A stretch of 8,138 nt of DNA, from positions 1 through 8,138 of the forward strand of contig NYZA01000153.1 in NCBI GenBank assembly GCA_002686955.1, written 5' to 3'. The position numbers were made by a program, and so were the translations under genes. Below are positions 2,051-5,403 of this stretch, piece by piece (the stretch's first letter is position 1; each line of letters opens with the position of its first letter). The DNA is from Gemmatimonadota bacterium. GTDB lineage: Bacteria; GCA-2686955. Under the pieces are notes generated by a model. The model was not told the origin of the DNA, did no database searches, and saw nothing but the letters and a program-made list of their open reading frames with translations.

Positions 2051-2900
2051 GGGGCTGAACACCTTCGTGCCGGTCGTCGAGGCGCTGATCTTCGCTTCCG
2101 ACGAGCCGCTCTCGACGCGACATCTCGTCGAGCTGCTGCCGGAGCTCGAGCCGGAGGATCTCTCTCGGGTGCTCGAGATGCTCGATTCGGCGCTCGAGTC
2201 GGCCGAGCGGGGCCTGCGTCTCGAAGAGGTCGCGGGCGGTTGGCGCTTCACGACGCGCGAAGAGCACGGCCCCTTTCTCGACCGCCTCTTCAAGGGGAAG
2301 CGCACGCAGCGCCTCACCCAAGCGGCTCTCGAGTCGTTGGCGGTGGTCCTCTACAGGCAGCCGGCGACCAAGGCCGAGATCGAAGCGATCCGCGGCGTGT
2401 CGGTCGACGGCCCTCTGCGCACCCTTCTCGATCGAAATCTGATCAAGGTGAGCGGCCGTGCCGATGGGCCGGGGCGCCCCCTGCTCTACTCGACGACGCG
2501 CGAGCTGCTGAAGCACCTGGGGCTACGGAATCTGCGCGATCTGCCGCAGCTCGATGAGCTCGAAGGGGTGCTTGAGACCTCCGAGGAGGGTGATCCCGAT
2601 CAGTTGGAGCTGGGGCAGAGTGTCGCCGAGGGGAGCGATCCCGGAGAGGCTCCGGAAGAGGGGGGCGCGCGGGACGAGAGCACCGAAGTGAACGAGGAGT
2701 CCGATGGAAAGGAAGAGGAAAGGGCGTCCGGGCCGGTCGGCGCGGGGGCCGGTGAAGAGGAGCGAGAGCAGTGGGAAGGGGAAGGGGACGAAGAAGAAGA
2801 GGGCCGCGCGGACGAAGGCGCCGGCCACGGCGAAGCGGGAGGCGCGACGGTCGGCCCGAAGGGCACCGAGGCGGGTCCCGTCCCGAACCGAACGGAGTGA
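2040..2900 (+). CDS. scpB: Segregation and condensation protein B with long acidic C-terminal tail
   Basis: ScpB forms dimers of paired winged-helix domains that bind ScpA in the SMC condensin. Residues 8-170 match the family: VPVVEALIFASDEPLS (10-25) opens the first winged helix, LTQAALESLAVVLYRQPATK (92-111) the second, and the conserved signature GRPLLYSTT lies at 145-153. The start at 2040 has GGGAG at 2028-2032, 7 bases upstream. Typical ScpB proteins are about 180-200 residues; this one has 286. From about residue 175 to the end the sequence is low complexity and acidic, with 37 Asp/Glu in 112 residues, including a run of acidic residues at 250-254. It is probably disordered. The last 65 codons are shared in another frame with the rluB start, so part of the tail is constrained by, or a by-product of, overlapping coding. 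Confidence 0.96.
   Translation: MTDEGLNTFVPVVEALIFASDEPLSTRHLVELLPELEPEDLSRVLEMLDSALESAERGLRLEEVAGGWRFTTREEHGPFLDRLFKGKRTQRLTQAALESLAVVLYRQPATKAEIEAIRGVSVDGPLRTLLDRNLIKVSGRADGPGRPLLYSTTRELLKHLGLRNLRDLPQLDELEGVLETSEEGDPDQLELGQSVAEGSDPGEAPEEGGARDESTEVNEESDGKEEERASGPVGAGAGEEEREQWEGEGDEEEEGRADEGAGHGEAGGATVGPKGTEAGPVPNRTE
2695..2699 (+). promoter_or_regulatory. Shine-Dalgarno supporting the overlapping rluB start
   Basis: AGGAG lies 4 bases before ATG 2704, inside the scpB coding region. It favours initiation at 2704 over the only other ordinary in-frame start before the S4 domain, GTG 2752. It therefore supports the full 197-bp scpB/rluB overlap. Confidence 0.6.
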
Positions 2901-3618
2901 AATCCGCCTGAACCGCTTTCTCGCCATGGCGGGAGTGGCCTCTCGGCGGGCCGGAGACGAGCTGATCCGCGAGGGGCGGGTGTCGGTGGACGGAGCGATC
3001 GAGACCTCGCCCGGCCGCCGGGTCGATCCGGAGTCGAACGAGGTGAAGCTCGACGGCCGGAGCTTGCGGATCGAGCAACGCCGGATCTATGTGCTCGTGA
3101 ACAAGCCGACCGGTTGTGTCGTCACCGCCGCCGATCCCCAGGGGCGGAAGACGGTTCTCGATCTCGTGCCGAAGCTGCCGGCTCGGGTTTTTCCGGTCGG
3201 GCGACTCGATCTGAACTCCACGGGGCTGGTGCTGCTCACCAACGATGGAGAGGTCGCCGAGAGGCTGGGCCATCCCCGCTACGAGATCGAGCGGGTGTAC
3301 CGGGCGAAGGTCAGTGGAAGTGTGTCGACGGAGCTGCTCGAGCGTCTGGAGCGTGGCGTGACGCTGGACGACGGCCCCGCGCGGGCCTTGCGGGCACGGA
3401 CTGTGAAACGGAACCAGGGGAGCACGGTGATCGAGCTCAGGGTCGGCGAAGGGCGATTCCATCTGGTGCGGCGGCTGATGGACGCCATTGGACATCCGGT
3501 CCGCCGCCTCACCCGGGTCTCGATGGGGCCGCTCTCACTGGGCGCGCTCCCTTTGGGCGAAGCCCGTCCGCTCACGATGTCCGAAGCCCGCTCACTGCGG
3601 CGCGCACTGGGGTTGTAG
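2704..3618 (+). CDS. rluB: 23S rRNA pseudouridine synthase, RluB/RsuA family, with basic N-terminal extension
   Basis: This enzyme isomerises a uridine to pseudouridine in rRNA. The scpB neighbourhood favours RluB (23S, near the peptidyl transferase centre) over RsuA or RluE/RluF. The product has 304 residues. An S4 RNA-binding domain starts at IRLNRFLAMAGVASRRAGDE (67-86). The catalytic domain follows, with YVLVNKPTG (129-137), the active-site motif GRLDLNSTGLVLLTNDG (166-182; catalytic Asp169), and the C-terminal EGRFHLVRRL (249-258) and GHPVRRLTRVSMGPL (263-277). Before the S4 domain is a roughly 66-residue basic tail with 27 Lys/Arg and only 5 Glu, probably disordered and RNA-binding. No ordinary start codon lies between GTG 2752 and the S4 domain, so an overlap with scpB of at least about 150 bp is forced. 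ATG 2704 has an AGGAG and gives 197 bp. Confidence 0.95.
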   Translation: MERKRKGRPGRSARGPVKRSESSGKGKGTKKKRAARTKAPATAKREARRSARRAPRRVPSRTERSEIRLNRFLAMAGVASRRAGDELIREGRVSVDGAIETSPGRRVDPESNEVKLDGRSLRIEQRRIYVLVNKPTGCVVTAADPQGRKTVLDLVPKLPARVFPVGRLDLNSTGLVLLTNDGEVAERLGHPRYEIERVYRAKVSGSVSTELLERLERGVTLDDGPARALRARTVKRNQGSTVIELRVGEGRFHLVRRLMDAIGHPVRRLTRVSMGPLSLGALPLGEARPLTMSEARSLRRALGL

Positions 3619-3687: not shown

Positions 3688-5403
3688 ATGGACATTCAGG
3701 GCAAGACCGTTCTCGTTCTGGGCGGATGGGGCCTCGTGGGCATGGCCGTCTGCCGGGAGCTGCTTGTGAAGCAGCCGCGCAAGCTCGTCGTCACCTCTCT
3801 CACGAAGCAAGAGGCCGAGAGCGCGGCCGACCGGCTTCGAAAAGAGGCGCCCGATGGTGTCGAGCTGGCGACCGCCTGGGGCAATATCTTCGTGAGGGAC
3901 GAGATCAAGGGAGCCTCGCGGGGCGAGATCCTGGGATCGGCCGAGTTTCGGGCGATGGTCTTTCACGACAGCATGGACGAGCTCTCGGAGGAGCTCCTGG
4001 CCGGCTCGACCCTCTTTCGAATCATCGACGAGCATCGTCCCGAGATCGTCGTCGACTGCGTCAACACCGCCACCGGCATCTCATATCAGGATGTGTACGA
4101 CAGCTTCCGCAGGGTAAGGCGAACCACCGAATCGGGGGACGGGGACGCCTTGCGAACGGAGACCGAGAAGCTGCTCTGCACCCTCTATGTTCCGCAGCTG
4201 ATCCGCCATGTGCAGATCGCCTACGAAGCGATGCGGCGCGCCGGCACCGAGATCTACGTGAAGATCGGCACCAGCGGAACCGGAGGGATGGGCCTCAACA
4301 TCCCCTACACCCACTCGGAAGAGAAGCCATCGAGGGTGCTGCTGTCGAAATCGGCGCTCGCGGGGGCGCACAGCCTTCTGCTCTTCCTGATGGGGCGCAC
4401 TCCCGACGCTCCGATCACCAAGGAGATTAAGCCCGCCGCGGCGATCGCATGGAAGGGGATCGAGTATGGCGAAGTGATGCGGGGTGGGCGGCCGATTCGG
4501 CTCTTCGACTGCGATCCGGAGGGCGGAGTGTTGCTCGGCGATCGTTTCGATCTGCGGCCGAGCGCCGAGGAGTGTGGGGCGAGGCCGTACCCGTCGGCGC
4601 GGGGGCAGGAATCGTTGCGATCGGTGTACGTCGACACGGGCGAGAACGGGATCTTCTCTCTGGGGGAGTTCTCGGCGATCACGGCCGCGGGGCAGATGGA
4701 GTTCGTCACACCGGAAGAGATCGCGCGCAATGTCGTCTTCGAGATCCGTGGAGGGAACACCGGTCGTGACATCATCAACGCACTGGACAACGCTGCGATG
4801 GCACCGACCTATCGGGCGGGCTTTCTCCGCGGGTCGGTGGTGGAGAGGATGTTGGAGCTGGAGAAGGAGCACGATCTGCATTCGGTGGCCTTCGAGAATC
4901 TGGGGCCGCCTCGCCTTTCGAAGCTGCTCTACGAGGCCCATCTCTTGCGCCTCACCTGCGGCACGATCGACGAGGTGCTGCGCCGCGGCGCCGAGGAGCT
5001 CTCCGCCGCGGCGTGGGAGCGGATCCGCTCCGATGACAAACTTCGCTCCGAGATCGTTTCGATCGGCATTCCGATCCTCGCGCCCGAGGGGGACCGGCTT
5101 CTTCGTGCTCCGGAGATCAAGATCCCGCCGCACCGGGGCGACGATGTCGTCTCGGCCGATGCGCGTGAGCGCGACAAGTGGGCGGAGGCCGGCTGGATCG
5201 ATCTGCGAGCGGCGAACTGGGGAGAGTGGCTCCGGCGGATCGAGACGATGGTGACCGAGGCCGAGAAGGCCGACGGCGACGATACGAGCTCCCGCGTGTT
5301 CATGGAGAAGCGCTTCTTGTGCCGCACCGATGACGTGCGCATCGGCAGCTTGGTGGCCTGGATCTTCATCGAAGAGGAGAAGGGCGAGAGGATGAAGGGG
5401 TAG
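3688..5403 (+). CDS. Uncharacterised NAD(P)-binding Rossmann-fold (SDR-like) protein
   Basis: The 571-residue product belongs to no family I can name with confidence. The N-terminus is a clear Rossmann dinucleotide-binding fold: strand KTVLVLGGWGLVG (6-18) with the glycine motif G12-x-x-G15-x-x-G18, then helix MAVCRELL and strand KLVVTSLT (32-39). A further core strand is EIVVDCVNTATG (119-130). KIGTSGTGGMG (192-202) followed by LLSKSALAGAHSLLL (218-232) resembles the SDR active-site Ser and the helix carrying the catalytic Lys (here Lys221), but the YxxxK tyrosine position is Val217. Residues from about 250 to 571 form a large extra region with no domain I recognise. It contains charged helical stretches and no signal peptide or clear membrane segment, so it is probably cytosolic. 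The frame is long and codon use resembles its neighbours. It ends 5 bp before cmk, which implies cotranscription. Its enzymatic activity and substrate are unknown. Confidence 0.85.
   Translation: MDIQGKTVLVLGGWGLVGMAVCRELLVKQPRKLVVTSLTKQEAESAADRLRKEAPDGVELATAWGNIFVRDEIKGASRGEILGSAEFRAMVFHDSMDELSEELLAGSTLFRIIDEHRPEIVVDCVNTATGISYQDVYDSFRRVRRTTESGDGDALRTETEKLLCTLYVPQLIRHVQIAYEAMRRAGTEIYVKIGTSGTGGMGLNIPYTHSEEKPSRVLLSKSALAGAHSLLLFLMGRTPDAPITKEIKPAAAIAWKGIEYGEVMRGGRPIRLFDCDPEGGVLLGDRFDLRPSAEECGARPYPSARGQESLRSVYVDTGENGIFSLGEFSAITAAGQMEFVTPEEIARNVVFEIRGGNTGRDIINALDNAAMAPTYRAGFLRGSVVERMLELEKEHDLHSVAFENLGPPRLSKLLYEAHLLRLTCGTIDEVLRRGAEELSAAAWERIRSDDKLRSEIVSIGIPILAPEGDRLLRAPEIKIPPHRGDDVVSADARERDKWAEAGWIDLRAANWGEWLRRIETMVTEAEKADGDDTSSRVFMEKRFLCRTDDVRIGSLVAWIFIEEEKGERMKG

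Follow-up and report, generated by a model that had tools for sequence, protein, structure and literature searches.

The genes scpA, scpB, rluB and cmk form an operon which is known in bacteria, for example in mycobacteria (PMC3323550). For overlaps between co-directional genes in general, all 715 cases longer than 60 bp were classed as errors and none as real; most long co-directional overlaps were put down to wrong starts which extend the 5' end or to frameshifts (Palleja 2008, PMC2478687). In 2008, the overlap of holD and rimI was the longest co-directional one accepted as real; it comprises up to 56 bp and is conserved in Enterobacteria (PMC2478687). Termination-reinitiation is most efficient where genes overlap or lie very close together, and coupling of this type needs overlaps of few nucleotides (PMC10666635). 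It was also argued that selection is not required for long phase-1 overlaps (Fonseca 2013, PMC3887535). Our literature search revealed no paper on an overlap of scpB and rluB.

The window, i.e. the whole analyzed stretch of 8,138 nucleotides from a Gemmatimonadota bacterium, contains the same genes in the same order as the mycobacterial operon (PMC3323550); all coordinates given here refer to the forward strand. It differs from this operon by an additional gene between rluB and cmk (3688-5403) and by a scpB-rluB overlap of unusual length. The 571-aa product of the additional gene has no Pfam match, and its sole model match is a weak one to the reductase DprE2 (E 1.2e-5). An overlap of 11 nt is found between scpA (ending at 2050) and scpB (starting at 2040) as well. 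scpB (2040-2900) encodes 286 aa, with the ScpB fold at residues 12-171 (Pfam) and an acidic low-complexity tail from about residue 175 to 286. The product passes the family models PF04079 with 170.6 bits (cut-off 27.4) and TIGR00281 with 108.8 (cut-off 89.2). The gene for an RluB/RsuA-type pseudouridine synthase (2704-3618) lies in the +1 frame relative to scpB and encodes 304 aa, with the S4 domain starting at about residue 67. S4 (PF01479, 39.7) was detected at residues 68-110 and PseudoU_synth_2 (PF00849, 72.7) at residues 129-260; these two domains and a TIGR00093 score of 158.1 (cut-off 109.3) place the protein in the RluB/RsuA family. Among the RluB/RsuA/RluF models, the equivalog model of Escherichia coli RluB, specific for 23S U2605 (NF007976), scores best, with 153.8 below its cut-off of 290. 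Because of this score the name rluB rests partly on gene order, and the exact rRNA target is left at the RluB/RsuA-type level.

The two genes share 197 nt (2704-2900), which encode the end of the acidic ScpB tail and a basic N-terminal extension of RluB. The initial annotation had reported this overlap in the +1 frame, and the open reading frames, coordinates, frame and length could all be reproduced. The open rluB frame follows TGA 2689-2691 and contains only two ordinary start codons (ATG, GTG or TTG) ahead of S4, namely ATG 2704 and GTG 2752 (2752-2754); the next one, ATG 2926, is already located within S4. Since GTG 2752 is the sole other ordinary start, at least 149 nt of the overlap are forced, the whole range being 149-197 nt, and no ordinary downstream start abolishes it. 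It had likewise been proposed that the overlap is mostly forced and of uncommon length. Both points hold: no ordinary start was found in the rluB frame between GTG 2752 and S4, and the forced stretch of 149-197 nt, which is the unusual part, is the longest of 73 junctions surveyed below. A Shine-Dalgarno-like GAGGAG (2694-2699) is located 4 nt upstream of ATG 2704 and is mostly unpaired in the predicted fold; RNA folding around ATG 2704 is otherwise unremarkable (z -0.70). GTG 2752 has no clear Shine-Dalgarno sequence.

As in holD-rimI, the overlapping genes are co-directional housekeeping genes. However, holD-rimI does not exceed 56 bp and is conserved in Enterobacteria, whereas the overlap described here comprises 149-197 nt and is known from one genome. 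The short unidirectional overlaps with termination-reinitiation (PMC10666635) are comparable in that co-directional operon neighbors are involved and the downstream start lies inside the upstream gene. These overlaps are typically 1 or 4 nt long, whereas the start in the window lies 197 nt before the scpB stop, so that an internal Shine-Dalgarno sequence is needed.

The charges of the two tails are opposite. Residues 222-286 of ScpB contain 20 D/E and 6 K/R, and residues 1-66 of RluB contain 27 K/R and 5 D/E, exactly as counted in the initial annotation, which had also pointed out correctly that a shift by one base turns GAG/GAA into AGG/AAG. The ScpB tail was recoded with synonymous codons according to the usage in a 285-kb sample of the source genome (173 ORFs, 74,497 codons). 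The +1 frame was open in 46% of these resamplings, and 33% K/R were expected in it compared to 41.5% observed (P about 0.01). In the reverse direction, recoding of the RluB extension yielded 11% acidic residues in the ScpB frame compared to 30% observed, a value reached by 0 of 20000 resamplings. The charge mirror is mostly automatic and expected from the ScpB composition. A basic frame arises automatically from an acidic one, whereas the reverse does not hold. This asymmetry makes it probable that the acidic ScpB tail represents the primary reading of the shared DNA. A comparison of 66 ScpB tails of at least 25 aa from many bacteria gave a mean of 29% D/E and 7% K/R, with 28% K/R in the +1 frame; the window ranks 11th of the 66 in this comparison. 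Junctions which overlap in the +1 frame do not differ from the others in their +1-frame K/R fraction (0.27 vs 0.29, P = 0.34). The idea that the opposite charges call for a special explanation is not supported: the tail of ScpB is acidic throughout bacteria, and its +1 frame is just as basic where RluB does not use it. It is also doubtful that each protein gained an extension, as had been suggested, because only the RluB extension looks derived.

A codon signal was found within the overlap. Glutamate is encoded by GAA at 10 of 17 positions, compared to 6 of 32 in the remainder of ScpB (P = 0.009) and with P = 0.053 against the adjacent ScpB tail alone; among 84 Glu-rich windows taken from 10 sampled genes, none has a GAA share as high. 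In the rluB frame, 10 lysine codons were observed and 4.6 expected (P = 0.006), while the rare AGG occurs 6 times with 10.5 expected (P = 0.02), all of these being small signals from one genome which were picked post hoc, with uncorrected P values. By the same test, neither the gain of Lys nor the loss of AGG is seen in the adjacent ScpB tail or in the core. The shift from AGG to Lys hints that the rluB frame may be translated within the overlap. The total K/R excess and the rluB-frame codon fit were dropped as overlap-specific evidence, since the non-overlapping ScpB core shows both.

Searches at the level of genus, family, class and phylum led to one other genome (G001) for comparison within the phylum. 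Its ScpB is 70% identical, and its contig ends inside the ScpB tail. No rluB was found in this genome, even at E ≤ 10, and no other of its contigs carries the sequence of the contig end. The +1 frame in G001 contains stops over part of the tail, followed by an ATG and basic residues at the contig end, in a tail for which the alignment is ambiguous. The similarity of 'MTRKRSGRE' in this sister genus to 'MERKRKGRP' was considered as a conserved rluB start and rejected: a match as good as this one of 28 nt (19 identities) occurs elsewhere in the window, and in the protein alignment this part of G001 lies further along the tail. At L087, from the nearest other phylum, the rluB reading frame can begin directly at S4 (MRLNRYLA). 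No relative was found in the viral contigs searched.

Junctions of scpB and rluB were collected across bacteria by anchoring on RluB (80 loci) and on ScpB, and both genes were located with profiles built for this survey. Among the 73 junctions with S4 at most 60 nt from the scpB stop, the forced overlap is at least 4 nt in 54, at least 50 nt in 10 and at least 100 nt in 4, counted by simple rules (ATG/GTG/TTG starts) on an uncurated set with a few near-duplicates. All ten forced overlaps of at least 50 nt are in the +1 frame. The longest is that of the window (149 nt), followed by L148 and L093 (131 nt each) and L041 (113 nt). In Calditrichota, the junctions reach from a 190-nt spacer to a forced overlap of 113 nt, which indicates that the gene border moves. 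Judged from predicted genes, the scpB-rluB overlap is widespread, and that of the window is a long example at one end of a continuum, since the surveyed junctions vary from spacers through short to long overlaps. This is in line with the view put forward in Fonseca 2013 (PMC3887535). The forced overlaps in several phyla suggest that the scpB-rluB pair may be an exception to the rule of Palleja 2008 (PMC2478687).

The overlap of the window is probably real and a long example of this widespread arrangement. We consider it fairly likely that the rluB start moved upstream into a tolerant acidic ScpB tail and that the basic extension arose mainly as a by-product. scpB and the rluB-type gene would then be consecutive genes of a conserved operon with a labile +1-frame overlap as their border, and the ScpB tail, which is probably disordered, would tolerate change. 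Having no ordinary start beside S4, rluB would most likely start at ATG 2704. GAGGAG would serve as ribosome-binding site, and other ribosomes would begin at ATG 2704 while those translating scpB pass over it. Reinitiation by the terminating ribosome seems unlikely, because the scpB stop lies 197 nt downstream of ATG 2704 and coupling by reinitiation needs overlaps of few nucleotides (PMC10666635). The 66-residue extension would be the tail DNA read with a shift of one base, its charge being mainly a by-product, and we infer that the direction of origin was from the ScpB tail to the RluB extension. Against this reading stand the stops in the +1 frame of G001, the finding of Palleja 2008 (PMC2478687) that none of 715 co-directional overlaps longer than 60 bp is real, the small size of the codon signals and the K/R excess in the ScpB core.

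The strongest rival, which we nevertheless regard as unlikely, is an assembly error. The AAA run near 2900 may lack one A; the true rluB start would then be a third-frame GTG in GTGAAA (2897-2902), and the long overlap an artefact. This GTG directly overlaps the scpB stop (TGA 2898-2900), and with the extra A the sequence GTG AAA ATC CGC CTG AAC would give MKIRLNRF, an N-terminus of usual length with a 4-nt overlap as at many surveyed junctions. Wrong starts and frameshifts are also blamed for most long co-directional overlaps (PMC2478687). However, such an error would have to be postulated, and 78% of the 285-kb genome sample lies in ORFs of at least 200 aa, with 56 ORFs of at least 500 aa; these long, intact ORFs indicate that frameshift errors are infrequent in this genome. 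A purine before TGA yields an overlapping GTG or ATG by chance roughly half the time, and the shift to GAA and Lys in the overlap would stay unexplained. A start at GTG 2752, with a 50-residue basic extension and an overlap of 149 nt, is hardly probable; apart from ATG 2704 no other ordinary start precedes S4, but GTG 2752 lacks the good Shine-Dalgarno sequence of ATG 2704. Very improbable is a start by termination-reinitiation at ATC 2902 just past the scpB stop. GGAG lies just upstream, the resulting N-terminus would match the family, and reinitiation is favored at overlaps or very short distances (PMC10666635). However, the overlap carries codon signals of the rluB frame. ATC start codons are very rare, which also speaks against it.

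Selection could further have shaped a true overlap. In one form, which has little chance of being correct, both charged tails would be functional and maintained by overprinting, for example by binding each other or by binding rRNA and DNA. The preference of Lys over AGG and a comparable pair of acidic and basic tails at L108, from another phylum, fit such selection, but the charges are expected from the ScpB composition and equal in unused +1 frames, and the overlap length differs between related genera elsewhere. Rather improbable is also that, in a true 197-nt overlap, selection at ScpB wobble positions tuned a new Lys-rich RNA-binding arm of the pseudouridine synthase, as part of a general route from acidic C-terminal tails to basic N-terminal arms of the following gene. 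With the start at ATG 2704 and the extension as a by-product, which we favor, a basic flexible arm could still aid rRNA binding or add non-specific RNA affinity to S4, and ribosomes which translate scpB across the rluB start could render the initiation of rluB partly dependent on scpB translation. The extension is probably derived from the acidic ScpB tail as a by-product, and any function or coupling is putative.

If real, the overlap exceeds several-fold the 56 bp which were once regarded as the maximum for a genuine co-directional overlap (PMC2478687). The survey points to scpB-rluB as a natural model for the movement of gene borders, because the length of the overlap differs both within phyla and between them and the genetic code converts an acidic tail into a basic extension with no additional change.

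Locus L108 (genome G058) contains a very acidic ScpB tail with 55 D/E and 4 K/R among 111 residues, and a possible RluB extension of 84 aa with 30 K/R, although starts nearer to S4 are also present; a search of the surrounding class yielded no relatives. In 36 of 74 junctions, scpB ends at or within the sequence that encodes S4. In many unrelated groups (gap -14, -11, -10 or -4; e.g., L019, L042, L097, L107, L029 and L145) there is no scpB stop before rluB, and scpB reads on to a stop triplet which lies out of frame within the conserved 'RLNK' codons of RluB; in the gap -14 group this stop is TAA or TAG. In three genera from two families of one class (that of G043; L094, L216 and L217), which overlap by about 89 nt or more, the scpB TAA is located at the identical position inside the RluB S4 codons.
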